Positions 7,412-64,000 of a stretch of 64,000 nucleotides of DNA are shown in pieces. Made by a program: the position numbers and the translations under genes. The stretch's first letter is position 1. The number at the start of each line of letters is the position of its first letter. Origin of the DNA: Chitinophagaceae bacterium (GTDB lineage: Bacteria > Bacteroidota > Bacteroidia > Chitinophagales > Chitinophagaceae); the NCBI GenBank assembly GCA_019638595.1, contig JAHBTJ010000012.1:124001-188000 (forward strand), read 5' to 3'. Below the pieces are notes generated by a model. The model was not told the DNA's origin. It worked only from the letters and a program-made list of their open reading frames with translations, and searched no databases.

Positions 7412-7844
7412 TATTTTCTCTCCGTTCCGCACATGCGGGACGAAGAGGGACAGCGCTGCAGAATAAAACCGAGCCTATCTCTCCTTCTCTCTTTCCAAAG
7501 CCCGCCTGAACGGACGTCCGCCCGTGCCGGTACGGACGCGGCAGGGAAAGGGAGGGGTCAAGCCTATCCCTCCTTCTCCCTTTCCCATAGAAAGGAAGCG
7601 GTGCTGCAAAACAATTCTAAGCTATATATCTACCACATCAAGCCTATCCCTCCTTCTCCCTTTCCAAAGGAAAGAGAGCGGTACTGTAGAACAGTTCCAA
7701 GATTTTTGTTCTTCCACATCATCTATATAGTATATCCAATCTCCACATTTTCACATTCCCAACCTCCCCGCTGCATTTCATCAACCTTCTCTGAATTTAG
7801 GCACCCCTCTTTCCTTCGGGAAGAGGGCCGGGGAGATGGGCTGC
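7412..7844. repeat. REPIN-like block 3' of permease 1, with four tandem left arms
   Basis: Boundary block of the array. Four consecutive left-arm modules (each a pyrimidine-rich hairpin such as CCCTTTCC against GGAAAGRGAGCGGT) start near 7415, 7471, 7562 and 7640. One carries an inserted palindromic tract (7516-7550). Then come the conserved spacer (TTCTTCCACATCATC onward) and the right arm at 7799-7844, which ends two bases before the stop codon of permease 1. This is the most expanded copy in the window. Confidence 0.75.
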
Positions 7845-7845
7845 T

Positions 7846-10233
7846 TTATTCCATCCTCAACGCTTTCACCGGGTTTGCCATCGCTGCCCGTATGCTCTGC
7901 CAGCCAATAGTTATTAAAGCAGCTATTATCGCAAGCGCTCCCGAAAAAATAAACAACCACCATGTAATCCGGATATGGTAAGCGAAATGCTCTAACCACT
8001 TTACTGCGGCCCACCATGTAACCGGGAAAGCAATAACAACGGATATCACAATAAGCTTTAAAAAATCTTTCGTGATCAGCATGAGTATATTTCCAATAGT
8101 TGCCCCAATCACTTTCCTGATGCCAATCTCTTTTCTTTTTTGTTCGGTTATAAAAATTATAATGCCCAATAATCCCGAGCAGCACATTAAAATAGTAATA
8201 ACAGAAGATAGCAATACAAAGTTCAGGATGTTTGTATCCTTTTTGTATAGTGTGGCAAATTCTTCATCAGCAAATGAGTATTCAAAATAAGTACCCGGAA
8301 AAAATTTCTTCCATAATTTCTCAACGGCTGTTAAGGCTTCTTTAACTTTCCCGGGTTCAGTTTGTATAATAAAGTTTTCGCTATTGGTGCCGCCCGGGGA
8401 TATTACAAGAGGGGCTATTTTAGTATGCAGGCTTTTATGGTAGAAGTCTTTCACCACACCTATTATAACTCCCTTTTTGAAGCGCTTACCGACAACAGGC
8501 TCCTTTATTCCAAACTGTTTAACCGCTGTTTCATTTAAAACTGTATTTAATTTATCATTATTGATATTCTTATCAAACCATCTTCCTTCACTTAACTGCA
8601 AATGCATGATGTTATTAAAATCCGCATCTACGGCATAAGATATATATTGTGGATTGAATTTATCGGGTTTGCCATCCCAGTCTATACCGTTTGATATGCT
8701 GAAGTTTTCGTTAACCAGAGAAGTAATATTAGTTCGGGAAACAGCTTTTACAGATTGAAATGTCAGTAATTCATTTTTCAATGTCTCTAAAGCAGACTCC
8801 TGTTGCTCCTCCGCTCCGGGCTTATCAAATGGAAATGCATAGGGTGGAACCTGTACAGTGAACACCTGGGATCGGTCATATGTCACATGTTGTTGTTGAA
8901 TAAAATTTAACTGGCGGTATATTACACATGTTGCCGAAATCATGAAAATAGCAAGCCCAAACTGGGCCGTAACCAATATCTTTCTGAACCTCACGCCTCT
9001 TGTCATTAAGCCATTACCATCTTTAAAAATATTAGCAGGATTGAATGATGATAAAAGCAGGGCCGGATATAAGCCTGTTAAAAACAAAACAGCAACAAAA
9101 GTACCGAGCAACATAAATATACTGCCCGGATAAATTGAATTAAAGGAAAACTGAAGCCCCGAAAAGTAGTTCAATATGGGGAAGCTGAGTGATAGCAATA
9201 TAATGGACAGCAATAACGACAGGCAGGCAGTAACAAAAGATTCAGCTATCAACTGAAAGAACAGTTGCCTTTTTGTTGCGCCCGTAATTTTCCGGATGCT
9301 CATTTCCTTTATCCTGGACGAAATACGTGCTATAGCCAGATTCACATAATTAATAGAAGCCGTTGTCAGTAATAACACTGCCAATACAACAAAGGCTACA
9401 ATCGAGTTTTTATCAGTATGTGAAAATGCAGATACTTTAAAATCATTTTCAAAGCGCATATCTTTTAATGGAACTAATGATGAGGTGATGCTTCCCTGTG
9501 CCTGGCTTTTGCTCTTTATTAATTTATCAATCTTATTTTCCGTAACAATTTTATTTGCTCCGGGCCGCAGTTTAATAAATGTTTTATACGACAGGTATAA
9601 CCAATCCTGGCTAATTACATCCAGATCGTGAAACCGGGTAATAACATCAAACTGAAAGCTTGAATTAACAGGATTGTCATTAACAACTCCTGCAACGGTA
9701 AACAATTTGTCATTTAATTGAATTTGTCTTCCTGTAGCTGCCGTTTTTCCAAACAGCTTTTCAGCTTTTGACCTGGTAATAATTACCGTTTGCGGATTTG
9801 AATAAAACAGTTCGGCACCTCCTTCTATAAAAGAATAATTAAAAACTTTAAACCAATTATTATCTACATGGATCGCGCTGTCAGCTTTAAATATCCTGTC
9901 ATTTACAGCTATGGTATAGGCTCCGGGCCTTAGTTTTTCCATTCGTGTTATCTCCTCTGCTTCCGGTATGCTTTTCTTAATTTCCTCACCCAACGGGAAA
10001 AAACTGTTTTCCGCTATCCATGTGTTGGTTTTATCAACATTCCATATATTTTTCATCAAAAAGATCCGGTTGGCATCAGTATGATAATCATCAAAGCTCA
10101 ATTCGTTATACACCCAAATTGATATTAGCATAGTAGCGGTTAACGCAACAGAAAGACCGCCAATATTTATAACGCTTATTATTCTTTGCTTTTGAATGTT
10201 TCTCCAAGCTGTTTTGAAATAGTTTTTTAGCAT
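7846..10233 (-). CDS. MacB/FtsX-family ABC permease, array member 1
   Basis: Inner-membrane subunit of a MacB-type ABC system. In this family ATP-driven motion is transmitted to periplasmic domains rather than through a channel. The layout, shared by all 19 members, is an amphipathic start (MLKNYFKTAWRN), TM1 about 20-42, a MacB_PCD-like periplasmic domain about 45-270, and TM2 277-300. Then come coupling loop KEMSIRKITGA (309-319), TM3 and TM4 ending in GLYPA (387-391), TM5 about 418-440, and a second periplasmic domain about 445-660. TM6, coupling loop KEIGIRKVIGA (about 701), TM7, TM8 and tail ANPVKALRME complete it: 795 residues, eight TMs. An open frame extends to 10308, but the extra 25 residues come from flanking repeat, so ATG 10233 is chosen. 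Last gene of the array in transcription order. Confidence 0.92.
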   Translation of the reverse strand: MLKNYFKTAWRNIQKQRIISVINIGGLSVALTATMLISIWVYNELSFDDYHTDANRIFLMKNIWNVDKTNTWIAENSFFPLGEEIKKSIPEAEEITRMEKLRPGAYTIAVNDRIFKADSAIHVDNNWFKVFNYSFIEGGAELFYSNPQTVIITRSKAEKLFGKTAATGRQIQLNDKLFTVAGVVNDNPVNSSFQFDVITRFHDLDVISQDWLYLSYKTFIKLRPGANKIVTENKIDKLIKSKSQAQGSITSSLVPLKDMRFENDFKVSAFSHTDKNSIVAFVVLAVLLLTTASINYVNLAIARISSRIKEMSIRKITGATKRQLFFQLIAESFVTACLSLLLSIILLSLSFPILNYFSGLQFSFNSIYPGSIFMLLGTFVAVLFLTGLYPALLLSSFNPANIFKDGNGLMTRGVRFRKILVTAQFGLAIFMISATCVIYRQLNFIQQQHVTYDRSQVFTVQVPPYAFPFDKPGAEEQQESALETLKNELLTFQSVKAVSRTNITSLVNENFSISNGIDWDGKPDKFNPQYISYAVDADFNNIMHLQLSEGRWFDKNINNDKLNTVLNETAVKQFGIKEPVVGKRFKKGVIIGVVKDFYHKSLHTKIAPLVISPGGTNSENFIIQTEPGKVKEALTAVEKLWKKFFPGTYFEYSFADEEFATLYKKDTNILNFVLLSSVITILMCCSGLLGIIIFITEQKRKEIGIRKVIGATIGNILMLITKDFLKLIVISVVIAFPVTWWAAVKWLEHFAYHIRITWWLFIFSGALAIIAALITIGWQSIRAAMANPVKALRME

Positions 10234-10250
10234 AAAAAGTAATTTAAAGT

Positions 10251-10463
10251 CTATCCTTCCTTCTCCTTTTCCAAAGGAAAAGGGAGCGGTACTGCAGAAT
10301 ATTTCCAAACTTTATACCTACCACATTAGCTATTGAATAAATCCAAGCTTGACGTTTAGTATTTGTAGGCCGCTTGCATTCTCAACTTCCCGTTCACTGT
10401 ATTTCATCAACCTCCTTTGAACTTAGGCACCTCTCTTCCCGAAGGGATGGGGGGAGATGGGCT
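10251..10463. repeat. REPIN-like element between permeases 1 and 2
   Basis: One left hairpin (10251-10295), a type I spacer containing the two related motifs near 10296-10318 and 10334-10352, and a right arm from 10428 that ends by the stop of permease 2. The 3' half closely matches the element at 13161-13240. Confidence 0.75.
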
Positions 10464-10466
10464 GCT

Positions 10467-12854
10467 TTATTCCATCCTCAACGCTTTCACCGGGTTTGCC
10501 ATCGCTGCTTTAACAGATTGAAAAATGGTGGTTGCCAATGCTATTGAGATCACAATCATGCCAGCAGCCAGAAATATCCACCAATGAATATGTACCCTGT
10601 ATGCAAAATTCTGCAGCCACTTATCCATTGCCCACCATGCAACGGGAATGGCAAGAATAACAGACAGAAAAATTAATATCAACAGATCTTTTGAAAGCAT
10701 TGCCGTAATACGTATGACTGAAGCGCCAAATACTTTTCGTATACCTATTTCCTTTTGTCTGCGCTCTGCAACAAATGCTGAAAGCCCAAATAAGCCTAAT
10801 GCAGAAATAACGATGGAAATACAACTGAAGATAAATACAAGCCCGGATAATTTCAGATCGTTCTTATATAAATTGTTAAACGCCTCATTCATAAACTGGT
10901 AATCAAACGGTGCATCCTTAACATATTTTTTCCATGTTGCATTGATAATGTCCATTACCTTCGGAACATTTCCGGGAGCAATCTTTACAAAGAAATCAAA
11001 CTTCCATTCATTATCCGTACCGCTGAATACCAGGGGAGTGATTTTGTCGTACAACGAGCGAAAAGCAAAATCTTTCACCACCCCGATGATCTGCCCGGTA
11101 TCTCCACCGCTTCTTGCAAATGTCTGCCCGATAACCGGTTGATGAATATGTAAGTTTTCTACGGCGGTTTCGTTCAAAACATAGTTTTTCCTGTCATCAC
11201 TATTGCTGAACCATCTTCCTTCTTTCAACCCGAGGTTAAATATATTTTTTGCCTCAATGTCAACTGCTACCCAGGAAACAGAAGTTTTGACACTGGTATC
11301 CATTCCATTCCAGTACCAGTTAGCAATACCGCCAGAACTCATGCCTCCCTCAATAGCGCTACTTGCGGCAGAAACTGCCTGGATAGCGCTGCTTTTTTGC
11401 AGGTCGTTTTTGATAGTCTGCACCAAAAGAACAGCCTGCTTGTTATCATCATCCGATTTTTGCATTACACTCCAGGGCAGGCGAAAGGTCACCACCTGTG
11501 AGCGGTTATATTGTGCTGCAGAAGTTCTTGCCAGCTTCATTTGCTGAAAAATAACTATTGTACCAACAATAAAAATTACACCTGTTACAAACTGAAATAC
11601 TATAAGCCCCTTTCTTAAAAAGACACTCTTAAATTTCAGGATAGTATTGCCCTGCAGGTAATTCAGGGGCTTAAAATATGACATAGTAAGCGCAGGCAAA
11701 ACACCATTCAATAATGTTGTAAACAATAGTGTTCCCAGAAAAATGCTCCATAATATTTTAGAGGCTAACGACAATTCAAATATATATCCGGTAAGATCAT
11801 TAAATGCAGGCAGCGCTATCCACATCGCTATCATTGAAATACACAACGCGATCAAACATAGTAAGAATGATTCTGTTAAGAATTGAATGAACAGTTGCTT
11901 CCGGCTGCTGCCAACAATTCTTCTGATGCTGATTTCTTTTGTGCGGGTATTCGCTTTTGCAATTGTAAGATTGACATAATTGATACTGGCTGTGACCAGG
12001 AGCAGTATGCCGAGCACACTAAAAACAAATACAGCGGTCCGGTTGCCGCGACGGATAAATGGATCGCTTGATATTGTATCAAAATGTAAATCACGTAAAG
12101 GTTGTAATACAATTGAAAAACCTTTTCCTTTGGACTCGTATAAAGAGCGGGCTGTAATATTTTTCTCAAATGCGCCGACATTAGTATTGGCATGCACTTT
12201 TACAAAAGTGCGGTAGCTCGAATTATACCAGTTGTTCAAGTCTCCCTGCCGGTAGTCCATACGTGCAGCCATTGGCGCAAACATCTCAAACTGCAAACTG
12301 GAATTTACCGGGTTATCTTTAACAATAGCAGATACCTGGTATAAGGTTGTATCAATGTTTACAACCTGGCCTATTGGGTTTTTATTGCCAAATAATTGTT
12401 TCGCTTTAGATTCTGTAAAAACAAGTGAAAATTTATTCCTGGAAAACGAATTAAGGTCGCCGCTTACAACTTTATAATCAAATATCTTAAACCAATCGCC
12501 GTCAACAGCAATGCCACGCTCATTTTGATTATACAACTGCCCGCCCACTTTCAGAACGCCGCCCCACCAGGCCATCCTTGCAACATAATCGGTGGTACTT
12601 TCTTTTTTAAGCGCTTCGGCAAGAGGAAAAGGTGTAACACTGCCCGGCTCACCGGTTGCATCATACTTTGTACGGGCCAAATAAATATCTTTTGCATTTT
12701 TATGATAGCCATCAAAATTCAGCTCATTCTGAACCCAAAGCGCTATAAAAATAAACGCAACCAGTGCAACAGAAAGTCCGAATAAATTGATCAGCGTTAT
12801 TACCCTGTTCCGGATTATGTTTCGCCATGCAGCTTTTATATAATTTTTGAACAT
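10467..12854 (-). CDS. MacB/FtsX-family ABC permease, array member 2
   Basis: 795 residues, start MFKNYIKAAWRNIIRNR. Coupling loops are KEISIRRIVGS in the first half and KEIGIRKVFGA in the second, the latter about 95 residues from the C-terminus. The motif that closes TM4, GxYPA in every other member, is GVLPA here (Tyr lost). By eye the first periplasmic domain is closest to member 1 (FDGYHKNAKDIYLARTKYD against FDDYHTDANRIFLMKN). Its last 50 nt are nearly the same as those of member 1 although the gene bodies differ. The heptad leader begins right at the ATG. No ATP-binding motif. Confidence 0.92.
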   Translation of the reverse strand: MFKNYIKAAWRNIIRNRVITLINLFGLSVALVAFIFIALWVQNELNFDGYHKNAKDIYLARTKYDATGEPGSVTPFPLAEALKKESTTDYVARMAWWGGVLKVGGQLYNQNERGIAVDGDWFKIFDYKVVSGDLNSFSRNKFSLVFTESKAKQLFGNKNPIGQVVNIDTTLYQVSAIVKDNPVNSSLQFEMFAPMAARMDYRQGDLNNWYNSSYRTFVKVHANTNVGAFEKNITARSLYESKGKGFSIVLQPLRDLHFDTISSDPFIRRGNRTAVFVFSVLGILLLVTASINYVNLTIAKANTRTKEISIRRIVGSSRKQLFIQFLTESFLLCLIALCISMIAMWIALPAFNDLTGYIFELSLASKILWSIFLGTLLFTTLLNGVLPALTMSYFKPLNYLQGNTILKFKSVFLRKGLIVFQFVTGVIFIVGTIVIFQQMKLARTSAAQYNRSQVVTFRLPWSVMQKSDDDNKQAVLLVQTIKNDLQKSSAIQAVSAASSAIEGGMSSGGIANWYWNGMDTSVKTSVSWVAVDIEAKNIFNLGLKEGRWFSNSDDRKNYVLNETAVENLHIHQPVIGQTFARSGGDTGQIIGVVKDFAFRSLYDKITPLVFSGTDNEWKFDFFVKIAPGNVPKVMDIINATWKKYVKDAPFDYQFMNEAFNNLYKNDLKLSGLVFIFSCISIVISALGLFGLSAFVAERRQKEIGIRKVFGASVIRITAMLSKDLLILIFLSVILAIPVAWWAMDKWLQNFAYRVHIHWWIFLAAGMIVISIALATTIFQSVKAAMANPVKALRME

Positions 12855-12893
12855 ACCTGTAAGATTTTAGATGTCAGCGATCAGCAGTCAGCA
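12855..12893 (-). repeat. Heptad-repeat leader of permease 2
   Basis: On the minus strand the 39 nt before the ATG read in 7-nt steps of the type GCTGACT, GCTGATC, GCTGACA, then TCTAAAA and TCTTACA, ending five nt from the start codon. It occupies the position of a ribosome site. Confidence 0.65.
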
Positions 12894-12902
12894 GTTATAA
12901 AA

Positions 12903-13240
12903 AATCCTCTCCCTCCTCCCTCTCCGAAGCCCGCCTGACCGGACAGGCAGGAAAAGGGAACGGTACAACAGAATATCTCCAATCTTTAAGTTCTTTCACA
13001 TCAGCGTTTGAATATATCCAAACAAAGCAGCCTCATCCTCTCGTCCTTCTCCTCGCGGAGAAGGACGGTGCTGCAGAATAATTCCAAACTTTTAGTTCTT
13101 CCACATCATCTTTTGAATATAGCCAAACAAGAGGTTTAGTATTTGCTCACACTTTTTATTCTCAACCTCCCGTTCACTGTATTTCATCAACCTCCTTTGA
13201 ACTTAGGCACCTCTCTTCCCGAAGGGATGGGGGAGATGGG
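12903..13240. repeat. REPIN-like element between permeases 2 and 3
   Basis: Two left arms in tandem (from 12903 and from 13031). The first carries an inserted palindrome of the CCTGACCGGACAGG kind in its loop. A type I spacer and a right arm (13206-13240) against the stop of permease 3 follow. Confidence 0.72.
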
Positions 13241-13245
13241 CTGCT

Positions 13246-15642
13246 TTACTCTATCCTCAACGCTTTCACCGGGTTTGCCACCGCCGCTTTTATTGCCTGG
13301 AAGCTGATAGCAAATAACGCTATCAGTATTGTACTAACTCCGGCAATAATAAATTCTCCACTGCCAACAGATGTTCTGTATGCAAAATTCTGAAGCCAGC
13401 TATTCATTGCCCACCATGCAACAGGAAAAGCAACTACCATCGCAATCAATATCAACTTCAAAAAATCTTTCGACAGCATAACAGCTATATCCACTACGGT
13501 TGCTCCGATCACTTTCCGTATGCCAATTTCTTTTGTTCTGCGCATTACTGCAAATGCTACAAGGCTTAATAAACCAAGGCATGCTATAATAATGGCAAGC
13601 CCGCCTATTATCGCAATCATTACGCTGGCTTGTCTTTCTGAACGATATACCTCTTTAAAATGCTCATCCATAAATTCATATGCCACTTCGCTGTTACCGG
13701 TAACTTTTTTAAAAGTTGCTTCCACGCTCTTTAATGTTCGGGAAATATTTTGGGTTGTTACTTTTACATATAACTGTTTTTGCCACACAGTCATAAAATC
13801 CATTGACCCGATTATTAACGGTTCAACAGGCTTATGCAATGAACTATAATTATAATCTTTCACCACACCAACAACAATTCCCTTATCCCAACCGCCTGAA
13901 AGATTAATTTGTTTACCTACCGGGTCTGTATAACCTATTTGTTTTGCTAAGGTTTCATTAATCAGGTATTCATTGGCGTTACTGCTATTGGTAAAATTTC
14001 GACCGGCAGCCATTTTCATATTGAAGAAAGGAACATAATTTTTCCCGGCATTCTCAAAATTTACAGATACATGTTTATCCTGCCCGTCAGGAGCTTTATA
14101 ATCAATACCAAAAATTCCGCCGTCTCCACCCAATTCCATATAGCCATTGGTAATATCTTCCACTCCTTTTAACTTTAACAGTTCATCCCGAATAATCGGC
14201 AGCTTTTCAGCATCCTGGTTTTCCAGAGGAATTTTTACAACCTGAGCATAGGAATAGCCGAGATTTTTATTTTGCATATACTGCAATTGCTTAACAAATA
14301 CTAAAAGGCTAACAACAAAAACTATCGCTATGGTAAACTGACCAGCAACAAGCACATTACGCAATATGGGTTTGGAAATACCACCGGGCAGTTTATTTTT
14401 CAGCGCTTCGTTGGCCCGTAATGACGAGATTAACCAGGCCGGGTACATTCCTGCCATGATTGTTGTACATAATATTGCAACAATATATGCTGCAATAAAT
14501 ACCGGCTGATATAACATCGCCGGGGAAAGGTTTCTGTCTAATATACTGTTTAAAAAAGGTAAAAAAATTATGCTTAAAACAAGCGCTGTAACCAATGCAA
14601 GGAAAACAGAGAAAAAGGTTTCTGTTATAACCTGGGCAATAATATACAGACGCTTTGCCCCAATTATTTTCCTCACTGCAATTTCTTTTCCCCTGTAACC
14701 ATTAACGGCAATAGTGAGATTAATAAAATTTATACCGGCTATTGTAAAAACGGCCAACCCGATTATGAGAAATATGTTAATATACTTACCGTCAATTTTT
14801 TTATAGTTGTATATATCATTCGTTATGTCAACCGACTTTGTGTGTACATCGGATAGCTTTTGCAACCTGACATCTATAAACTTATTTTTTTCATGAAGCG
14901 TTTGGGTAAGTTTTAAAGCCAGGGAAGCTGCATTTATATCTCGTCGCAGGCGTACATATGAAGGACCCATTATCACCCCAAAATTTGCCTCATATCCATA
15001 CCCTATTTTTTCGGGGATGGGCAACAAGGCATCTGCCTGTATATGGAATGTTTCAGGCAAATCGGCAATGACATTCGCAACGCTAAAAGAAAGCGTGGTT
15101 GTATCGCTTGTTCGCAACAACAATGTTTTATTTAAAGCCGGGGCATTACCAAATATTTTATTTGCCAGGCTTTGGGTGAGTACAATGCTGTTTTTTGTTT
15201 TCAGAAACTCTTTTTTGATACCTTCAATAATTTTTACCCCGAACATATCGGCAAAAGAGGTGTCAGTGCAAGCGAGGTTTGCAGTTGCTATTTTCTTTCC
15301 TTCAAACTCCAAACCTGCAGCGGGGTATACATTTGGACTAACAGGATACACCCTTGTAAAACTTTCAATTTCAGAAAAATTATCTTTAAGAAATGGAGCT
15401 ATGGGTGGCCCCGAAGCAGCCGACAACTGCGGCGCCGCTCCATGATAATGTATATACTCGTTAAGGCGGTAGATATTTTCTTTACCAGGCACCTGTTTAT
15501 CAAAACTCATTTCATTATACACAAACAGGCCTATCAATATGCAGGACGCAATACTGATACCTAACCCCGCAATATTAATGAGCGAATATTTCCTGTTACG
15601 GATAAGATTTCTGCAGGCAACCATGATATAACTTCTGCGCAT
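13246..15642 (-). CDS. MacB/FtsX-family ABC permease, array member 3
   Basis: 798 residues from ATG 15642 (MRRSYIMVACRNLIRNRKYS). The open frame begins at 15696, but the 18 extra residues are leader sequence. Coupling loops KEIAVRKIIGA and KEIGIRKVIGA. It departs from the other members in two places. The N-terminus lacks the usual M(F/L)KNYF, and in front of TM8 the usual WW.F pair is replaced by SVGSGEFIIAG. TM4 ends in GMYPA. By eye the middle (LRANEALKNKLPGG, NLGYSYAQVVKI) is nearest to member 19. The frame is intact and the family call is firm. Confidence 0.92.
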   Translation of the reverse strand: MRRSYIMVACRNLIRNRKYSLINIAGLGISIASCILIGLFVYNEMSFDKQVPGKENIYRLNEYIHYHGAAPQLSAASGPPIAPFLKDNFSEIESFTRVYPVSPNVYPAAGLEFEGKKIATANLACTDTSFADMFGVKIIEGIKKEFLKTKNSIVLTQSLANKIFGNAPALNKTLLLRTSDTTTLSFSVANVIADLPETFHIQADALLPIPEKIGYGYEANFGVIMGPSYVRLRRDINAASLALKLTQTLHEKNKFIDVRLQKLSDVHTKSVDITNDIYNYKKIDGKYINIFLIIGLAVFTIAGINFINLTIAVNGYRGKEIAVRKIIGAKRLYIIAQVITETFFSVFLALVTALVLSIIFLPFLNSILDRNLSPAMLYQPVFIAAYIVAILCTTIMAGMYPAWLISSLRANEALKNKLPGGISKPILRNVLVAGQFTIAIVFVVSLLVFVKQLQYMQNKNLGYSYAQVVKIPLENQDAEKLPIIRDELLKLKGVEDITNGYMELGGDGGIFGIDYKAPDGQDKHVSVNFENAGKNYVPFFNMKMAAGRNFTNSSNANEYLINETLAKQIGYTDPVGKQINLSGGWDKGIVVGVVKDYNYSSLHKPVEPLIIGSMDFMTVWQKQLYVKVTTQNISRTLKSVEATFKKVTGNSEVAYEFMDEHFKEVYRSERQASVMIAIIGGLAIIIACLGLLSLVAFAVMRRTKEIGIRKVIGATVVDIAVMLSKDFLKLILIAMVVAFPVAWWAMNSWLQNFAYRTSVGSGEFIIAGVSTILIALFAISFQAIKAAVANPVKALRIE

Positions 15643-15677
15643 AGTGATTATTGTTAGTTTATAGTCTGTTATAAAAG
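15643..15677 (-). repeat. Heptad-periodic leader of permease 3
   Basis: Weak 7-nt periodicity on the minus strand (ACAGACT, ATAAACT, then AACAATA, ATCACT) directly before ATG. More degenerate than the GCTGA-type leaders. Confidence 0.4.
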
Positions 15678-15699
15678 CATTCCTCAATTCACACATTCC

Positions 15700-15844
15700 A
15701 CATTTTCACACTTTCTGTATTATCGTGTTCTTTCCATCTTTAGGTTGCTCCTCTCACCATTTTTCAAACGGTTGAGCGTTTGAGCACCCCTCTCTCCCTC
15801 CCGAACATTCGGAACTGCGGGATGGAGAGGAGCAGGGGGTGAGG
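15700..15844. repeat. Right half of a REPIN-like element, type II spacer
   Basis: Only the type II spacer (CTCACCATTTTTCAAAC, 15754-15770) and the right arm are present; the left hairpin is missing. The right arm (15783-15844) has a nested CCCGAACATTCGG insertion and ends GGGGGTGAGGGCT at the stop of permease 4. Confidence 0.65.
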
Positions 15845-55414: not shown

Positions 55415-55741
55415 AGCCTCACCCTCTTATCCCTCTCCTCGCTGCGGAGAGGGACGGTGCTACAGAATAAATCTAAACTTTTAATTCTTCCACATCAGGC
55501 CTATCTCTCCTTCTCTCTTTCCAAAGCCCGCCTGACCGGACGGGCAGGGAAAGAGAGCGGTGCTTCAGAATAATTCCAGGCTGTATCACTACCATTTCAT
55601 CTACCGAATATATCCAGGCCTGACGTTTACTATTTGCCCACACTTTCACATTCACAACCTTCCCCTCACTGTATTTAATCACCCCGGTATGAATTTGGGC
55701 ACCCCTCTTCCCTTCGGGAAGAGGGGACGGGGGAGATGGGC
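55415..55741. repeat. REPIN-like element between permeases 16 and 17
   Basis: Two left arms (55415-55459; 55498-55562, with CCTGACCGGACGGGCAGG inserted), a type I spacer, and a right arm CCCTCTTCCCTTCGGGAAG (55703-55721) with tail to the stop of permease 17. Confidence 0.75.
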
Positions 55742-55743
55742 TG

Positions 55744-58122
55744 CTATTCCGCCCGCAATGCCTTCACCGGGTTCGCCATCGCCGCTTTTATTGATTCATA
55801 GCTTATCGTTATCCATGCTATTGCCAGTGCGCCCAGCGATGCAAGAAGGAATATCCACCAGCTTAGCTCAACATGGTATGCAAATCCCTGCAACCATTGG
55901 CTGATGGCGATCCACGCAAGCGGTACTGCTATCAGCACAGCGATCAATATTAATTTTGTAAAGCCAGTGGAAAGCATATACACAATGCCGAAAACAGATG
56001 AGCCCAATACTTTCCGCACACCGATCTCCTTAGTGCGCTGCTCAGACATGAATGCCGACAAACCGTATAAGCCCATGCAGGAAATAAAAATGGCCAGTAT
56101 GGCGAATACATTGAACAGGCTGCCCATCTGCTGCTCCCCTTTATACGAGTTAGCGAGATCCTGGTCAACAAACCCATACGAAAAAGGATAGGCAGGATTA
56201 AGATCCTTACTTATTTTTTCCAGGGCGTTGATCGTTGCTTCGGTAGCGCCGGGTTTGGTTCGTATAGTAACAATCCCACCCCACCGGTTGAGGCGGATAA
56301 TTAATGGCTCAACAGCTTGTTGTATAGGCTTGAAATTAAAATCCTTTGCAACGCCTACAATTGTACCCCTGCTACCCCACAATGCAAGAGGCTTCCCGAT
56401 AGCATCAGAAGGTTTTTTTATACCCATCACCTGCAGCGCTTTTTCATTGACGACATAATTCCCTGAATCACCTTTAAAGTCTCTTGAAAATGCCCTGCCG
56501 GCGGCTAATTTCAACTGGTATACATCAAAGAAATCCTCATTCACATCCAGGTTGGGAAAAATGACCTGGTTATTCGGGTCTTTGCCCCCCCAGTCCACAT
56601 CAACAGTTCCGGAATTAAGATTTACCGGCAAATCTCCTGAAACAGCAAAATCGCTGGTAAGCGGGCTCTGCTTTAATGCGGCTTTTAACGCATCCTGCCT
56701 GCTCCACATATCACCTGTCATCGGCATATACATCAGGTTAGATTTATCAAACCCTATATTCATGCTCTTAATAAACCGCAACTGGTTATATACAATTGCT
56801 GTTCCTGCCAGTAATACGATAGACACTACAAACTGGAGCACCACAAGCCCGTTCCGGAAAATGCGATTACCGCCCATTGTTTTCACATTTCCTTTCAGCA
56901 CTTTTACCGGCTTAAAACCGGAAAGGAACAGGGCCGGATAGCTGCCGGAAAAGATGCCGGTCAATAATGCAATAGCAATAAGACCTGTTACAACTTTTCC
57001 ATCCAGTATATTAATAGAAAGTGTTTTACCGGCAAGGTGATTGAATGCCGGCAACAGCAGCCACACTAAACCTACAGCAATTACCAGTGCCAGGAAAGAT
57101 ATCAGCATTGACTCGCCTAAAAACTGGCCGATAAGCTGGCTGCGGCCCGCGCCTATCACTTTTCTTAATCCTACTTCCTTAGCACGTCGTGCAGATCTTG
57201 CCGTAGCCAGGTTCATAAAATTAATACAGGCCACCACCAGTATAAAAATGGCCACCACGAAAAAAATATTTACATACTGTATATTGCCATGCCCTTCCAT
57301 ATCTGCCTGCAGCTTCGAATGCAGGTGAATATCTGCCAGGGGTTGTAAGTGAAAACTAACATTCTTCAACACTTTTTCATCCACATGCTCCTTATATATT
57401 TTATCTAATTGCCCTTCTACATTTGCCAGTCCGGCGCCGGCAGCATTAAGCCCTTTATCCAGCCTGACATAATTGTAAAAATTGAAATTATCCCAGCGGT
57501 TATTTTTAAGGTCACCGTTTGTTTGTGCTATGGCAGACATCGGCATCAGGAAATCAAACTGCAGGTGCGAGTTGGCGGGAATATTTTCCAGCACACCTGT
57601 TACGGTAACATTATCCTTATTATCCATACGCAATATCTTACCCAACGGGTCTTCATTACCAAAATATTTTTTTGCCATATCTTCTGTCAGCAAAACAGCG
57701 TCCGGGCGGTTTAACGCGGTGGCTGCATTTCCTTTCAGCAGCCTGAACGAAAAAAAGTTCAGCACGTTGGAATCTACATTGAAGGTTCGTTTTTCCTCAA
57801 ATTTTTTTAACCCCATTTCAAAAACATGAGTAGTGGTATAACTGAAACGGACAAAATCCTTGACCGCGGGTATTTTCATTTTCAGTTCCGGGGGCATCGC
57901 CGCGGGATTCACCGCTGCTTTAAAGCCATTAAAATCTACCGTAATCCGGTAAATATCATCAGCATTTTTGTGAAACCGGTCGTAGCTCAGCTCATGCTGC
58001 ACCCACAATAAAATAAATATGCTGCATGCCATACCGATGGATAATCCTGCAATATTTATAAAAGCAAAAGCCTTGTGGCGGGCAATATTCCTGAATGCGA
58101 TTTTTAAATAATTTTTAAACAT
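55744..58122 (-). CDS. MacB/FtsX-family ABC permease, array member 17
   Basis: 792 residues, start MFKNYLKIAFRNIARHK. Canonical: coupling loops KEVGLRKVIGA and KEIGVRKVLGS, TM4 end GSYPA, QLKLAAGRAFSRDFKGDSGN in the second periplasmic domain. Its upstream side is unusual: the antitoxin start lies 19 bp away on the other strand, so the heptad leader and repeat found at other members are gone. Any promoter must lie inside the toxin-antitoxin genes or be lost. Confidence 0.93.
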   Translation of the reverse strand: MFKNYLKIAFRNIARHKAFAFINIAGLSIGMACSIFILLWVQHELSYDRFHKNADDIYRITVDFNGFKAAVNPAAMPPELKMKIPAVKDFVRFSYTTTHVFEMGLKKFEEKRTFNVDSNVLNFFSFRLLKGNAATALNRPDAVLLTEDMAKKYFGNEDPLGKILRMDNKDNVTVTGVLENIPANSHLQFDFLMPMSAIAQTNGDLKNNRWDNFNFYNYVRLDKGLNAAGAGLANVEGQLDKIYKEHVDEKVLKNVSFHLQPLADIHLHSKLQADMEGHGNIQYVNIFFVVAIFILVVACINFMNLATARSARRAKEVGLRKVIGAGRSQLIGQFLGESMLISFLALVIAVGLVWLLLPAFNHLAGKTLSINILDGKVVTGLIAIALLTGIFSGSYPALFLSGFKPVKVLKGNVKTMGGNRIFRNGLVVLQFVVSIVLLAGTAIVYNQLRFIKSMNIGFDKSNLMYMPMTGDMWSRQDALKAALKQSPLTSDFAVSGDLPVNLNSGTVDVDWGGKDPNNQVIFPNLDVNEDFFDVYQLKLAAGRAFSRDFKGDSGNYVVNEKALQVMGIKKPSDAIGKPLALWGSRGTIVGVAKDFNFKPIQQAVEPLIIRLNRWGGIVTIRTKPGATEATINALEKISKDLNPAYPFSYGFVDQDLANSYKGEQQMGSLFNVFAILAIFISCMGLYGLSAFMSEQRTKEIGVRKVLGSSVFGIVYMLSTGFTKLILIAVLIAVPLAWIAISQWLQGFAYHVELSWWIFLLASLGALAIAWITISYESIKAAMANPVKALRAE

Positions 58123-58141
58123 TTCTTTATATTTTTACACT

Positions 58142-58339
58142 ATGATATCACAAAAACTGACCGACCTTCAATTAGAACTATTAAAAGTTTATTCGTTTCA
58201 ACCAAACGAGGAAGACCTGCTTGCCATAAAACAAATGCTGGCAAAATACTTCTCCGATAAGTTGCTTTCCAAAATAGACACTGTCACTACCGACAACAAC
58301 ATTTCTGAACAAGACTTAGACAAATGGCTTGATGAATAA
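58142..58339 (+). CDS. Antitoxin of a PIN-toxin pair
   Basis: 65 residues, MISQKLTDLQLELLKVYSFQ to EQDLDKWLDE. Resembles the small antitoxins (type QLELLKVY ... DLDKWL) found before PIN-family toxins in Bacteroidota and cyanobacteria; the family is recognised from memory of the type, not from a search. Its stop overlaps the toxin start by 8 nt, as usual for such operons. It diverges from permease 17 with a 19-bp gap and reads against the array direction. No clear promoter fits in the gap. Antitoxins of this kind usually autoregulate their operon. Confidence 0.75.
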   Translation: MISQKLTDLQLELLKVYSFQPNEEDLLAIKQMLAKYFSDKLLSKIDTVTTDNNISEQDLDKWLDE

Positions 58340-58759
58340 GCTGCGATTGATTTTAGACACCAACATTTTTTTGGTATCCTTGCGCCCCGCTACAAATACC
58401 ATTGGATTTATCAATCCTTGATGCAGAATAAATATGAGTTGTCATTATCAAACGAAATTTTAACTGAATACCAGGAACAAATCGTTTTCCGTTATGGATT
58501 AACCCAAACCGATGCGCTCCTTGACTTTCTTCTACTTTTACCCAACGTTATTTTCACCGACCCATCTTATCATTGGCACCTTATAACAAATGACGAAGAC
58601 GATAATAAATTTGTAGACTGCTATATTGCCAGTCGCGCAGATTATATTATCAGCAACGATAAACACTTTCACCAAATAAAGAACAATCCTTTCCCCCCTG
58701 TTTCTGTTCTTAATTACAAAGAGTTTGAGGCTCGTTATCACCATTCGTTTTCTGTTTAA
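58332..58759 (+). pseudogene. PIN-domain toxin gene, frameshifted
   Basis: From ATG 58332 the first frame reads [19 protein letters not shown] and soon meets a stop (TGA 58419-58421). The protein continues in another frame as [20 protein letters not shown] to the stop at 58759. One base appears to be missing in the C4 run at 58385-58388; an added C restores about 143 residues. The rebuilt protein has the PIN acidic residues: Asp in LDTN, Glu in LSNEILTEY, Asp in DDNKFVDCY and SNDKHF. PIN toxins are usually RNases. Either the toxin is inactivated or this is a homopolymer sequencing error. Confidence 0.75.
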
Positions 58760-58766
58760 CCAACAC

Positions 58767-58793
58767 TTACGCTGTTCTCAAGCTCTTCATCCC
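58767..58793 (-). pseudogene. Relic of a permease 3' end
   Basis: Minus strand reads in frame ..MKSLRTA and a TAA stop, matching the PVKSLRTE end of the permeases with two changes. It lies 37 bp beyond the intact stop of permease 18. Possibly the scar of a lost array member whose place was taken by the toxin-antitoxin pair. Short, so uncertain. Confidence 0.35.
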
Positions 58794-58829
58794 GATATTC
58801 GCTTCGCTTCACCGGAGCCAGCGTATTAC

Positions 58830-61226
58830 TCACTCCGTTCTTAGCGACTTCACCGGGTTCGCCACTGCCGCTTTTATCGCCTGGAAGCTCACTGTTAATA
58901 ATGTAATCATAATTGCTCCGGCTACTGCCGCCGCAAATACCCACCATGATATGCCCACACGATAATCATACTGTTGCAACCAGCCATGCAAATAGTAGTA
59001 TGCAACGGGAATGGCGATGATGCAGGAAATACCAACCAGTATCACAAAGTCCTTTGACAACAGTGTCCATAAATTAAAAACGGATGCACCAACGATTTTT
59101 CGAATACCAATCTCTTTGGTACGCTGCTCTGCCATAAAAGAAGCCAGCCCGAATAAGCCTAAACAGCTAATAATAATAGCAAGTATGGCAAAAAGGCGGG
59201 CAGCTTCGCCCACCTTTTCTTCAATGGCAAACTTTTTGGCATACTCCTGATCAGCAAACTTGTAATCAAATGGCGCTGCGGGAATTAACTGCTTAAATAC
59301 CTTTTCTACTATGGCTAATGATTCAGAAGTGCTTTTCTGTGGATTCAATTTTAAATTGATAACATTTACATTATCATTGGTTAAAAGATATACAGCTTGT
59401 TTTACCGGCTGATAAGGTGATGACATTACCATATCTTTTACTACACCTACTATAGTTAAAGCTGCTGCTTCCGGCCCATCGCCCCAGCGAACAATTTTGC
59501 CAACAGGATCCTGTATGTTCATGAACTTAATAGCAGCCTCATTTACGATCAGCGAAGCGCTGTCACCTTTAAAATCACGTGAGAAATCACGCCCTTCCTT
59601 TATTTCAAAACCAACGGTTTTTCCATATTCCGCAGTAACCCAAAACGTGGCAAAATCAGTATCCAGGTTTGGATCTTTGCCTTCCCAGTTAAAGCCCCCG
59701 CTATTGCTCCATACATTTGTAACCGGGCTGGATGATTCTGACATTTCCACAATAGCATTTTGCTTTTTCAATTCCGCACGAAGTATATCATACTTTCCAT
59801 AAAAATCAGGCGTTTGCATCATGACCATTACAAGATTATTCCTGTCGTATCCTACCGGGCGATCTTTAGTATGTTGTATCTGCTGATATACGATGATCGT
59901 ACAAATGATCAAAGCAACAGATACAGAGAATTGTGTTACCACTAAAACTTTTCTTGGCAGAGCCGCAAGCCTGCCGGCTTTAAAAGTTCCTTTCAATACT
60001 TTCACCGGTTGAAAAGAGGAGAGATAAAATGCAGGATAACTGCCGGCAATCAGTCCTGTAATAACGGTAAAACTTAAACCAGCCAGCCAGAACCATCCAT
60101 TACCCCACAAAATGTCCATTCGTGCATCCACCACCTGGTTAAACCATGGCAATGTTAGCTTTGCAAGTAAAATAGAGAGAACAAATGCAATAAAAGAAAC
60201 GAGAACCGATTCGCAAAGAAATTGCCTGATTAACTGTATGCGATCAGAACCGATTGTTTTGCGTATCCCTACTTCTTTTGCTCTTTTTTCCGAACGGGCT
60301 GTGCTCAGGTTCATAAAATTGATGCATGCAAGCAGCAATACAAAAACCCCAATAATGCCAAACATCCACACATATTCTATTCTCCCTCCGGCTTGTATGC
60401 CCTCTTTCCATGAAAAGCGCAGGCGCCAGTCTTTCATAGGATGCAGGAAGATGCGGGCATTGAATTTCTTTTCATCATCTGACACTTTATTCAGCTTTGC
60501 TTTTTCAATTCTCCGGTTAACAGAAGCAAAATCCGTATTATCATTTATCTGCGCAAAACACTGGAAAGAATTATTGCCCCATTGTGTCGCCGCCTGTGTA
60601 AGCCAGCCTTCGGAAGTTTTATACAAATCCCAGGGAGCAATAAACTTCAGTTCCCGGAAAGTTGTACTGTAGGGCAAGTCTTCAAATACACCTGTAACTT
60701 TTACATTCAGCTTGTTGTCAATTTTCATTGGCTGATCCATAGGATCTGCATCACCAAAGAAAGCTTTAGCCGTGCTTTCAGAGATAAGAATACTATTGGG
60801 GTTCGTCAATCCATCGGCAGAACCTTTTACTATTTTTAAAGACAGGATATGCGGCCCGTCTTTATCAATATAAATACCGTTCTTATACAAATGCTTATTG
60901 TCCTTACTCAGCATGTGATCGCCCTGCCAGGAAGCCATAGCAAGATATTTGAAATCGCTGCCATAGCTGTTACGCAATTCTTCTCCCAACGGTAAAGGCA
61001 GGGCTTGCCCCGTATAAACATTACCATTCCATGTTTGGTGTTGTTGCACCTGGGCTACCCGGTTGTAATTAGTATGATAGGTATCAAATGTAAGTTCATC
61101 CCATATCCATAAACCGATTAATATGGCCACCGCCATACCAATAGCAAGCCCGCTGATATTGATGAAAGAGGATTTCCTGTTCTTCAATAAATTCCGCCAG
61201 GTGATCTTAAAATAGTTTTTTATCAT
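58830..61226 (-). CDS. MacB/FtsX-family ABC permease, array member 18
   Basis: 798 residues from ATG 61226 (MIKNYFKITWRNLLKNR). The frame opens at 61268, but the 14 extra codons are heptad leader. Coupling loops KEVGIRKTIGS and KEIGIRKIVGA, TM4 end GSYPA. Paralogue of member 4 (GSDFKYLAMAS, SSSPVTNVWSNSGGFNWEGK, FDYKFADQEYAKKF) and shares KDWRLR with member 15. TM7 has PVAYYYLHGWLQQYDYRVG in place of PVAWW. The 3' side holds the permease relic and the frameshifted toxin gene. Confidence 0.93.
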   Translation of the reverse strand: MIKNYFKITWRNLLKNRKSSFINISGLAIGMAVAILIGLWIWDELTFDTYHTNYNRVAQVQQHQTWNGNVYTGQALPLPLGEELRNSYGSDFKYLAMASWQGDHMLSKDNKHLYKNGIYIDKDGPHILSLKIVKGSADGLTNPNSILISESTAKAFFGDADPMDQPMKIDNKLNVKVTGVFEDLPYSTTFRELKFIAPWDLYKTSEGWLTQAATQWGNNSFQCFAQINDNTDFASVNRRIEKAKLNKVSDDEKKFNARIFLHPMKDWRLRFSWKEGIQAGGRIEYVWMFGIIGVFVLLLACINFMNLSTARSEKRAKEVGIRKTIGSDRIQLIRQFLCESVLVSFIAFVLSILLAKLTLPWFNQVVDARMDILWGNGWFWLAGLSFTVITGLIAGSYPAFYLSSFQPVKVLKGTFKAGRLAALPRKVLVVTQFSVSVALIICTIIVYQQIQHTKDRPVGYDRNNLVMVMMQTPDFYGKYDILRAELKKQNAIVEMSESSSPVTNVWSNSGGFNWEGKDPNLDTDFATFWVTAEYGKTVGFEIKEGRDFSRDFKGDSASLIVNEAAIKFMNIQDPVGKIVRWGDGPEAAALTIVGVVKDMVMSSPYQPVKQAVYLLTNDNVNVINLKLNPQKSTSESLAIVEKVFKQLIPAAPFDYKFADQEYAKKFAIEEKVGEAARLFAILAIIISCLGLFGLASFMAEQRTKEIGIRKIVGASVFNLWTLLSKDFVILVGISCIIAIPVAYYYLHGWLQQYDYRVGISWWVFAAAVAGAIMITLLTVSFQAIKAAVANPVKSLRTE

Positions 61227-61260
61227 AGTCTTGTAATTTCTGATATATGATTTAGTGATT
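61227..61260 (-). repeat. Heptad-periodic leader of permease 18
   Basis: AATCACT, AAATCAT, ATATCAG, AAATTAC, then AAGACT directly before ATG. Confidence 0.5.
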
Positions 61261-61474
61261 AGCCTCATCCTCTTATCCTTCTCCTACAGAGAAGGACGGC
61301 ACGGCAGAACAAGTCCAAACTATATATCTACCACATCAACGATATAACATATCCAAACAATTCGTTTAATATTCGCTCACACTTTTACTTTCACAACCTC
61401 CCTCCATTACATTTCATCAACCTCTTTGAACTTAGGCACCCCTCGCCCCCTGGGGAGAGGGGCCGGGGGTGAGG
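61261..61474. repeat. REPIN-like element between permeases 18 and 19
   Basis: The simplest complete copy. Left arm AGCCTCATCCTC...CCTTCTCCTACAGAGAAGG...GGCAC (61260-61304), type I spacer, right arm GGCACCCCTCGCCCCCTGGG to GGGGGTGAGGGCT (61435-61474). The two arms are the same REP sequence in opposite orientation. No inserts. A useful reference copy. Confidence 0.8.
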
Positions 61475-61475
61475 G

Positions 61476-63914
61476 CTACTCGCTCCGCAACGCCTTCACC
61501 GGATTTGCCATTGCCGCCTTTATTGCCCGGAAGCTTACTGCAAGCAAAGCCACTAGTATCGCTATGCTTCCGGCAAGTGCAAACATCCACCATTTCATTT
61601 CTGTACGATACGCAAAACCCTGCAGCCACTTATTCATAAACCACCAGGCTATTGGTGAAGCGATCAGAATAGCGATGATCACCAATTGTATAAAATGTTG
61701 AGATAACAATATTGCCACCTGCCATACAGATGCACCCATTACTTTCCGGATACCGATTTCTTTGGTTCTTTGCGCTGTACTGTGAAAAATAAGCCCCAAT
61801 ACGCCCAGTCCGGATAAGATCAGCATAATTGTCCCAAATACGCTGATCAAAGCCTGTTGTTTGTATTCCGAATTATATAGCTGCTTTACGGCTTCATCTA
61901 CCCATATTGCTTCTAACGGTCTGCCGGGGAACAGCTTATCCCAGGCGGACTGTAACCCGGCTAATACCTGCTTTTGTTTTTGCGGATGTATCCTTATATA
62001 AATACCGCCATTGTCTAAGTTGTCGAGCAACATAATCACTGTAGGGTCAAGCGTAAGATGAAGCGACCTGGCATAAAAATCCTCGATAATCCCTATCGGG
62101 TTCATATCAGTTCCGGGAATAGGCGTATTTATGGCAGTTACCCCCAGCAATTGTGCTGTGGATTTTGTAATTATTACATTCTCAAGATGCTTCTCTGACG
62201 TGTTGTGCAGTTGCTTATGCTCATTATTTTTTTCTTCCGGGCCGGCATTGCTACGGTCTGCCCCATATTGTTTGGAGGGATAGCGTCCATCTAAAAATTT
62301 GAGTTCCATCGTTCTTGCGAAATCCAGGTCAGACAAACCCACACGCAATGAAATTTCCTGTGTTGGATTTTTAGGATTTTTAATTGTCGTTCCTCCAAAA
62401 AAGTCATCTATGGGATTCCATATAGAAACACCTACTGACAATACGCCGGGTATTTTATTTAATTCATCTTTTAAAACGGGCATCGCCTTCAACCGGCCTG
62501 AAGGTTTTATATAAAGCAGGTTCTCTTTGTTATAGCCCAGCTCTTTATTATTAATAAATTGTATTTGGCTGTTCACAACAATAAATGACACCAATACAAC
62601 AATAGCAACCACAAATTGTACTACCACAAGTCCTTTCCGCAACCGGTCAGTATTAAACAATGAGCGTAGGGAAAGCCTGTTCCGCAGCGCGTCTGAAGGA
62701 TTTAGCCCTGACATTACCCAGGCCGGGTATATACCCGTAACAACACTTAATATGCAAATGCCAAGTATCGTAAATATCAGGAAGTGTAGCTTCGATTGTA
62801 AAGTATAAGTCAGCCTGTGCTCAAGGAATCTTTCAGTTGCAGGCAACATCATGAAGTAAAGTACTATGGCCGCAATGGCAGATATAGAAAAGAACAAGAA
62901 GGATTCAATAAGAAATTGCTTTACAATTTTTTTTCTACCTGCTCCCAGTATTTTTCTGATGCCCGTTTCCTTTAATCGCCTGAGCGATTGCGCTGTATTT
63001 AAATTAATGAAATTGATACATCCGATGGCCAACAATAAAATGCCGACGGCAGAAAATACAACAAGATTGATCTTTTTGCCTTTTACTTTGAGGCTGGTAT
63101 CAAAATCAGCATCCAGGTATACATCCTGTATGGGCTGAAATGAAAACGTTATCACTCCGGGTTTTTCGTCCATGTGACTGGTATACCAGTTGTTTACCTT
63201 TTCGGCGAACAAAGATGCATTCGTTCCTTCTTTTAACTGGTAATATACTGTTTGGGCTATGGAGCCTTTTCTCTTCACGAGGTATTGAGGGCTGTTTGCA
63301 CTAAGTATTATTGCGTCGGCTCTTAAATGGGTATTGGGGGGAATATCGTTAATAACTGCTGTGATAAGATATTCTGTAGTATCTCCAGACATAGAGGAGA
63401 TGTCATAAATAGTTTTGCCAACGGGGTTTTCGTTCCTGAAATATTTGTCTTTCAGAGACATTGCCACTGCTATATTGCGGACACCGGGCACATAAGGAAT
63501 GGACTTACCGTTAACTGAATTGATATCAAACATGGAGATAAAGGAGGTATCAACACTCAATGCTTCTATAAAAAAGGATTGACCGGATGATATTTCCGGT
63601 TTAATGTAAAGGCTCACTTGCGAAACTGATGAAAAAGCCTGTACTTCCGGGAACCTGCTTTCTATTTCGGTACCCAATGCGACAGGCGTAAAAGGCATTT
63701 TTGTCTCTACATCATTAATAGTAATCGTCTGGTTGGCTTTATATAAACTCCTGCTGTTTTTCCAGAAAGTATCATAAGAAAGCTCATCAAAAACAACGGT
63801 AAAGATCAGCAGGAATGCACTCAATCCGAGCGTTATACCCAGCGCGCTGATAACGGAGAATGACCTGTTCCCGGTTATATTACGCCAAGCTGTTTTGAAG
63901 TAATTGTTTAGCAT
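61476..63914 (-). CDS. MacB/FtsX-family ABC permease, array member 19
   Basis: 812 residues from ATG 63914 (MLNNYFKTAWRNITGNR); a TTG three codons upstream is not preferred. Coupling loops KETGIRKILGA and KEIGIRKVMGA, TM4 end GIYPA. The second periplasmic domain has a distinctive charged insert, SKQYGADRSNAGPEEKNNEH, before LENVIITKSTAQLLGV. By eye the transmembrane middle is nearest to member 3. TM7 has PIAWWFMNKWLQGFAYRTE. First complete array gene at the right edge; repeat DNA beyond it suggests the array continues. Confidence 0.93.
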   Translation of the reverse strand: MLNNYFKTAWRNITGNRSFSVISALGITLGLSAFLLIFTVVFDELSYDTFWKNSRSLYKANQTITINDVETKMPFTPVALGTEIESRFPEVQAFSSVSQVSLYIKPEISSGQSFFIEALSVDTSFISMFDINSVNGKSIPYVPGVRNIAVAMSLKDKYFRNENPVGKTIYDISSMSGDTTEYLITAVINDIPPNTHLRADAIILSANSPQYLVKRKGSIAQTVYYQLKEGTNASLFAEKVNNWYTSHMDEKPGVITFSFQPIQDVYLDADFDTSLKVKGKKINLVVFSAVGILLLAIGCINFINLNTAQSLRRLKETGIRKILGAGRKKIVKQFLIESFLFFSISAIAAIVLYFMMLPATERFLEHRLTYTLQSKLHFLIFTILGICILSVVTGIYPAWVMSGLNPSDALRNRLSLRSLFNTDRLRKGLVVVQFVVAIVVLVSFIVVNSQIQFINNKELGYNKENLLYIKPSGRLKAMPVLKDELNKIPGVLSVGVSIWNPIDDFFGGTTIKNPKNPTQEISLRVGLSDLDFARTMELKFLDGRYPSKQYGADRSNAGPEEKNNEHKQLHNTSEKHLENVIITKSTAQLLGVTAINTPIPGTDMNPIGIIEDFYARSLHLTLDPTVIMLLDNLDNGGIYIRIHPQKQKQVLAGLQSAWDKLFPGRPLEAIWVDEAVKQLYNSEYKQQALISVFGTIMLILSGLGVLGLIFHSTAQRTKEIGIRKVMGASVWQVAILLSQHFIQLVIIAILIASPIAWWFMNKWLQGFAYRTEMKWWMFALAGSIAILVALLAVSFRAIKAAMANPVKALRSE

Positions 63915-63940
63915 ACAATGCAATTGTTGATTTACAATTT
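63915..63940 (-). repeat. Heptad-periodic leader of permease 19
   Basis: AAATTGT, AAATCAA, CAATTGC, ATTGT before ATG; nearly the same as the leader of permease 10. Confidence 0.5.
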
Positions 63941-63941
63941 A

Positions 63942-64000
63942 AACCTCTCCCCCCTACAGCCGGCACGCTTTTATCGCTCTCCTCGCTACGGAGAGGGACG
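63942..64000. repeat. REPIN-like left arm cut by the window edge
   Basis: CCTCTCCCCCCTACAGCCGG with a second hairpin CTCTCCTCGCTACGGAGAG (63977-63995), the usual left-arm sequence after a permease start. Confidence 0.6.

Follow-up and report, generated by a model that had tools for sequence, protein, structure and literature searches.

A hairpin-ended repeat at permease stop codons in a Chitinophagaceae-like genus: probably a mobile REPIN/BIME-like element that spreads independently of its neighbouring genes

A short repeated element was found behind most of the tandem permease genes in a 64-kb stretch (C4:124001-188000, hereafter the window) of the 7.06-Mb draft genome of a Chitinophagaceae bacterium. 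The initial annotation had described it as like a REPIN, i.e. a doublet of repetitive extragenic palindromic (REP) sequences forming hairpins, seemingly duplicated together with the permease as a gene-plus-repeat cassette. The analysis reported here indicates that it is probably a non-autonomous mobile repeat of mosaic construction, similar to REPINs and to bacterial interspersed mosaic elements (BIMEs), which spreads independently of the genes it follows and which our searches place in one Chitinophagaceae-like genus. Its turnover was much faster than that of the permease genes, so that it looks like a mobile add-on and not like part of a cassette. Three observations argue for a spread independent of the permeases: near-identical elements stand behind dissimilar genes, copies occur at unrelated genes, and copies are present or absent at orthologous loci.

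Read on the plus strand, the element consisted of an L unit (AGCCT..., a hairpin, and GGTGCT..AGAATAATTCCAAACTTTTTGTTCTTCCACATCA), a spacer of one of three kinds (a, b or c), and finally an R hairpin whose last letters, GGGCT, lie at the stop codon of the permease; since the permease genes lie on the opposite strand, the order in the direction of transcription is stop codon, R, spacer, L. The L unit was about 80 bp long, terminated in ...CCACATCA, and occurred singly or in direct tandem (e.g. 7561-7640 followed by 7641-7739). At E<=0.01, a sequence-only model of this unit matched the window 27 times, the best match being near 1e-25 and one weak match lying on the opposite strand. The series started with a weak match at 7418-7473 and a strong one at 7561; it had no match before 7.4 kb, in agreement with the absence from 1-7 kb described in the initial annotation. 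When the permease just past the window (L019) was counted as the twentieth, an L unit was found on the 3′ side of 16 of the 20 permeases, and the R hairpin was read by eye at 18 of 20 junctions, 0-3 nt from the stop codon. Both occurred together behind 16 permeases, the L of permease 7 being devoid of its hairpin, and no element was seen by eye at the junction of permease 18. The recurrent shape of two hairpin ends inverted around a spacer, as in a REPIN, was confirmed in this way, and the partial forms also proved real (permeases 4, 7, 12 and 16; Table 1).

The elements were compared with the genes in front of them. Elements 9 and 13 were 99% identical over 199 nt and elements 17 and 20 were 91% identical over 332 nt, with permease proteins of only 32% and 41% identity, respectively. 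Conversely, the closest permeases, 6 and 11 (69%), carried elements of 69% identity, near the mean of 67% for all pairs. Across the 16 L-bearing junctions (120 pairs), a Mantel test of element against permease similarity gave a rho of 0.027, a value equalled or exceeded in 833 of 2000 permutations. It was also observed that one inserted segment was common to five R hairpins (23828, 39111, 44481, 47306 and 50206) whose permeases were only ~30-38% identical. Between genomes, in the fetched and joined stretches, 17 permease pairs of 75-98% protein identity were available, and in none of them was the element of the ortholog the best match; the count was 0 of 13 after exclusion of permeases 12, 16 and 18, whose own junctions have no intact element. 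This comparison took every pair of at least 75% identity and replaced an earlier one of 16 hand-picked pairs, in which 6/G004, 10/G007 and 12/G003 were missing. In the congener G004, orthologs of permeases 3, 5 and 6 that were 97-98% identical were followed by 3′ regions of only 59%, 42% and 66% identity. Judged from these alignments, permease and element do not share one history, and the claim that they were duplicated as a unit was not upheld.

The distribution of the element pointed in the same direction. Genome-wide, 36 L units were found at E<=0.01, 27 of them in the 60-kb array and nine elsewhere at seven sites, none of which adjoined a permease; likewise, no L-unit match was found near MacB-domain genes outside the array of this genome. 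The enrichment in the permease array was thus confirmed, and the even scatter named in the initial annotation as refuting its cassette was not seen, although the cassette falls on other grounds. Unrelated genes were followed at the seven sites above and in 26 of the 33 element clusters of G003, as well as in 13 of 29 in G007. The L-unit model matched nine of the 12 genomes of the genus, the present one included, the three without matches being G009, G010 and G011, and none of 26 genomes from the same family and order but outside the genus. All copy numbers should be read as minimum values, because the model scored the best 107-150 first-look candidates per genome out of several hundred to ~3100. 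Contexts were retrieved for the G003 and G007 matches, G004 was represented by a chosen subset (five stretches, mostly arrays), and open reading frames (ORFs) of at least 150 aa were taken as genes. The type c R end occurred as 18 exact-like copies in six of 12 genomes, of which ~12 lay within 34 nt of the end of a long sense ORF and the others did not. A wide regular expression for R-like hairpins, itself insensitive even inside the genus, gave a single match when applied to permease loci outside the genus (1.38 Mb), compared with 57 in the loci of four genomes of the genus; 13 of the latter lay within reach of a stop codon, and all 13 were in sense. Altogether, the genus harbours a general repeat family that is enriched at permeases yet not tied to them. 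Many non-permease copies (L138, L141, L143-L148, L151-L174; G007 and G003) were without R, an AT-rich spacer of AATTTGAAAATGTGGAAATGTGAGAATG-type words preceding the L unit.

Presence and absence at orthologous loci were then apparent. The gap between iolB and a gene that we take to be iolC (the name mmsA at this locus is likewise our own reading; Pfam matches there were KduI/IolB and PfkB) held a full element in two of 11 congeners, only L units in two, and neither an L nor an R core in seven, a twelfth genome having no ortholog match at the locus. Behind iolC, the element was found in two of the 11 congeners and not in the other nine, absence being judged in all cases within the fetched stretches. 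Four of the seven non-array sites were compared with G004: at three, the flanking genes were there without the element, and the fourth, at iolB, was shared, with G004 having an extra L unit at a GATGTGG repeat whose sequence was unlike that of the neighbouring unit. The possibility suggested by the iolB locus, namely stability outside the array and turnover only within it, was not supported, since three of these four loci differed. At the array end, the window genome and G004 carried elements of different types (c and a, respectively) between conserved flanks. Taken together, these loci show a dispersed element, present or absent at orthologous sites, where each single difference may reflect either insertion or loss.

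Within the array, the transcription order 6-5-4-3 of the window corresponded to 6-5-3 in G004 (C8:46001-84000), where permease 4 was absent and the 5/3 junction retained a stub resembling a permease 3′ end. Orthologs 12 and 11 were also adjacent in G004, the ortholog of 10 lay beyond 3, and the orthologs of 84-98% identity formed the blocks 12-11 and 6-5-3 with other genes interleaved; many array permeases had an ortholog in the stretches of one fetched relative only. Array order is thus partly kept and partly shuffled between these two congeners. Since one permease gain or loss was seen at an element-bearing junction, such junctions can bound permease indels, and the pattern fits a loss and gain of permeases through the short homology of 3′ ends and elements, a mechanism that we infer.

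A strong polarity was another feature of the family. Among 109 clusters in four genomes, 94 lay between co-directional genes, 11 between convergent genes and one, a fragment, between divergent genes, and three could not be placed; a repeated count of the contexts gave identical clusters and tallies. The co-directional copies at permeases were all in sense (54 to 0), and those at non-permease genes were in sense in 36 cases and antisense in four (P=1.9e-7), in stretches whose gene pairs were co-directional in 81 cases, divergent in 27 and convergent in 19. In three genes of the window genome (iolB, a gene on C19 and a gene at C10:63 kb), the element entered the reading frame and supplied the stop codon, as is known for GTAG REPs (PMC3733652).

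These features can be joined in a mechanism in which the mobile entity would be the 80-bp L hairpin unit, often in tandem, together with a spacer of variable kind and the R hairpin that closes the element. Its copies stand at the 3′ ends of genes or slightly within them, almost without exception in sense and with R at the stop codon, which some of them supply. Copies in sense at 3′ ends may then persist as harmless or mildly useful, providing a structured mRNA 3′ end, with other placements being lost. Copies of the array would be exchanged among junctions by recombination and could offer short homology for the loss, gain and shuffling of permeases, for which one indel was observed and the route is proposed. 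The mover is not visibly among the Y1 transposases scanned.

Several observations weigh against this reading. First, the near-identity of elements within the array could be produced by gene conversion alone, with no transposition. Second, two ortholog pairs came close to vertical inheritance: the element of permease 17 matched that of its G004 ortholog at 84.9% (best other, 86.4%), and that of permease 10 matched its G003 counterpart at 79.7% (best other, 80.3%). When permease 6 was aligned with its ortholog in G004, the alignment continued into the element, although this element match of 66.1% was below that with another element of the same genome (73.9%). Third, the extra L unit at the G004 iolB could equally be explained if slippage between direct repeats had removed a unit from the window genome. 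Fourth, neither a transposase nor a target-site duplication nor an excision product was found, and the orthologous intergenic regions were too diverged for a clean insertion to be read. In addition, some copies may not be independent of one another, which would inflate the count of orientations, and the RNA fold of one copy was only weakly better than that of shuffled sequences (z -1.81; 9 of 200 as good).

A more novel alternative ascribes the sense polarity to insertion itself, which would be aimed at the 3′ ends of genes and at the transcribed orientation, e.g. by copying through, or targeting by, mRNA 3′ ends or terminating transcription complexes. Moved by an unrecognised enzyme, the element would seed patches of homology behind permease genes and drive a rapid reshuffling of a large permease repertoire. 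We consider it rather unlikely; selective retention would explain the polarity most simply, and directed insertion is the bolder idea.

The polarity and the position at stop codons could also belong to a non-mobile, conserved RNA element of the array 3′ ends, such as a terminator, a stabiliser or a ribosome-termination structure, homogenised by gene conversion. The structure of the hairpins, on which the favoured reading also draws, lends some weight to this idea. The stems varied among copies with compensatory changes, left and right arms changing together. RNAalifold returned no pairs for the L alignment, in which MAFFT had misregistered the arms of 9-bp and 10-bp stems, and for this reason the pairing of L units was counted by script. 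Perfect pairing of the 8-bp arms was found in 63.9% of 122 distinct L units, in a count that did not preselect paired arms (one of the two counts made did), whereas arm swaps between units (200 exchanges) averaged 43.9% and never exceeded 52.5%. For the R alignment, RNAalifold found nine pairs, three of them with changes on both sides. Because its arms covary, the hairpin of the element is a real structure. An insulation of translation by stable structures that follow stop codons is reported in PMC7518266. On the other hand, copies stood behind unrelated genes and were not found at the same loci in relatives, the spacers were of three different kinds, and permease 18 had no element, which makes this explanation improbable. 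The window had no Rfam match over the gathering score, and the element corresponds to no known Rfam RNA family. The −33/−7 promoter motifs of Bacteroidetes were not seen by eye in the L core.

We are equally doubtful that the element is a true REPIN moved by a REP-associated tyrosine transposase (RAYT) of the genus, a Y1 HUH enzyme. The two inverted hairpin ends around a spacer would suit this view, as would the five Y1_Tnp genes of the window genome and the presence of Y1_Tnp in all 12 genomes of the genus; one weak match (25 bits, C19:18961) lay at a distance of ~1.9 kb from an element, from which it is separated by another gene. However, the three genomes without L-unit matches have Y1_Tnp as well, and neither an L nor an R core was found at E<1 at any of the 32 Y1_Tnp loci scanned (of 72 matches in the genus), so that the REPIN membership proposed in the initial annotation fails for want of its defining partner. 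RAYT genes, by comparison, are reported to be always flanked by their REPs (PMC2817692). The tetranucleotide GTAG stood before the stem in only four of 23 L units, ~5 nt off it, and the element is asymmetric and biased in orientation. Several Y1 transposase genes of the genus (L011, L201, L204, L210, L213 and L220) were instead flanked by hairpins of their own (e.g. GAATAGCCCCCAAC...GTTGGGGG), and these genes with their hairpins are a separate RAYT-REP-like system. The element would accordingly resemble REPINs (inverted REP doublets, as defined in PMC3116915) and BIMEs in its working, and would differ from them in partner and motif.

The remaining two explanations tie the element to the genes. 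That permease and 3′ element duplicate and move jointly could be argued from the array enrichment, from the constant place of the R hairpin relative to the stop codon, and from the whole permease missing at an element-bearing G004 junction. It is nevertheless very unlikely in view of the uncorrelated similarities, the unmatched ortholog pairs, the 99% identical elements behind 32% identical proteins, the free-standing copies behind unrelated genes and the lack of L-unit matches near MacB-domain genes outside the array. Finally, integron-like (attC-like) recombination sites behind each gene of a cassette array, suggested by the same-direction genes, the folded site behind most stops and the gene content varying between compared array stretches, can hardly be entertained, because element similarity does not track the genes, single copies are scattered behind chromosomal genes such as iolB, and the core motifs RYYYAAC/GTTRRRY were not seen by eye at the element ends (no integron integrase search was made).

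Table 1. Permease array and associated elements in the window
Feature	Coordinates	Strand	Composition and remarks
Array of 19 MacB_PCD/FtsX permease genes	7846..63923	-	20th just beyond window; breaks at 26.8-30.3 kb and 58.1-58.8 kb
Permease 1 element	7561..7842	-	two tandem 80-bp L units, spacer a, R hairpin
Permease 2 element	10248..10463	-	L, spacer a, R
Permease 3 element	12906..13242	-	two L units, spacer a, R
Permease 4, partial	15760..15845	-	R hairpin and spacer b only
Permease 5 element	18251..18501	-	L (GC palindrome in loop), spacer b, R
Permease 6 element	20956..21177	-	L, spacer a, R
Permease 7 element	23671..23853	-	L core without hairpin, spacer a, R with inserted CGTGCCCGCCGAAGG segment
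Orphan L fragment	26390..26482	-	5′ side of permease 7
Permease 8 element	30458..30738	-	two L units, spacer a, R
Permease 9 element	33280..33578	-	two L units, spacer b, R
Permease 10 element	36137..36471	-	two L units, spacer a, R with palindromic insert
Permease 11 element	38855..39138	-	partial L + L, spacer a, R
Permease 12	41613..41670	-	L end alone, fused to palindromes; core lost (by eye)
Permease 13 element	44279..44506	-	L, spacer b, R
Permease 14 element	46985..47333	-	two L units, spacer a, R
Permease 15 element	49923..50231	-	partial L + L, spacer a, R
Permease 16	52800..52858	-	L end joined straight to R hairpin, internal deletion (by eye)
Permease 17 element	55415..55741	-	two L units, spacer a, R
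Permease 19 element	61261..61475	-	reference copy: L, spacer a, R; R end overlaps stop codon
Permease 20 element	63960..64000	-	start only; rest in C4:188001-188287

The 19 permease genes of the window are all transcribed in the same direction, and the further one in L019 completes a set of 20 whose proteins are 26-69% identical to one another. All 20 matched MacB_PCD, and FtsX domains were also found in the three scanned against Pfam. The array is split at 26788-30346 by two genes, one for an RCC1-repeat protein whose tail may be a secretion signal and one for a Gfo/Idh oxidoreductase, and R-like hairpins were noted between them (28951-29059). Two small plus-strand ORFs, antitoxin- and PIN-toxin-like by eye, fill the sole junction without any element (58142-58759). 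At the upstream end of the array (L019), an ABC ATPase and an HlyD-type fusion protein are encoded at 3926-4603 and 5192-6448, and they are likely partners of the array permeases. Other repeats were also observed. GC-rich perfect or near-perfect palindromes (e.g. CCCGAACGTTCGGG) occurred within the loops or arms of element hairpins at 30424, 30472, 33246, 33294, 38883, 49894, 49986 and 55527, as if a smaller second palindromic repeat inserted preferentially into hairpins. An unrelated repeat family, made of runs of GAGCTxTCAGC / GGGCTTTGAGCTGTCAGC-like words, lay upstream of permease starts (44134-44240, 55307-55400 and others), and some of these runs contained TCCGCCGTGGCGGA (23618, 44177).

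Most REP-type repeats described so far come from Proteobacteria and have a RAYT partner, and their direction has received little attention. The present Bacteroidetes family has no visible RAYT partner, a strong transcriptional direction and a fast turnover at stop codons. It offers natural pairs of present and absent sites for learning how such repeats reach 3′ ends. It also illustrates a way in which repeats may serve as patches for recombination where many transporter genes stand in tandem. No description of this family was recognised in the open-access literature searched on REPIN/RAYT/BIME, Bacteroidetes, Chitinophagaceae and tandem permeases. The element is similar to miniature inverted-repeat transposable elements in being short and non-coding with imperfect terminal inverted repeats, and it departs from them in that neither a parent transposon nor a target-site duplication was found, no duplication being readable at the diverged loci compared.

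Four other known systems are also comparable. REPINs (Bertels & Rainey 2011, PMC3116915) share with the element the two inverted hairpin ends around a spacer, the dispersal and the mobility, and differ from it in size (71 bp between the 16-mers of the GI doublet, against ~215 bp here), in number (hundreds of doublets, against tens of copies found) and in the asymmetry, the non-random placement and the lack of a detected RAYT that mark the present family. BIMEs (PMC2817692, PMC8266576) are likewise intergenic mosaics of inverted hairpin units with variable inter-hairpin segments and tandem units. However, the element shows a strong sense polarity at 3′ ends and a long conserved L core, its extra L units are in direct tandem and not alternating, and no link to RAYT or GTAG was found. 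The GTAG/CGTC REPs (PMC3733652) also have ends that adjoin ORF ends and may give the stop codon, although the element is composite and ends in AGCC(C)TCACCC, not in GTAG. Finally, the ribosome termination structures described in PMC7518266 resemble the element in placing a stable hairpin right after stop codons, but they constitute a structural class and not, as would be the case here, a repeated mobile sequence family.

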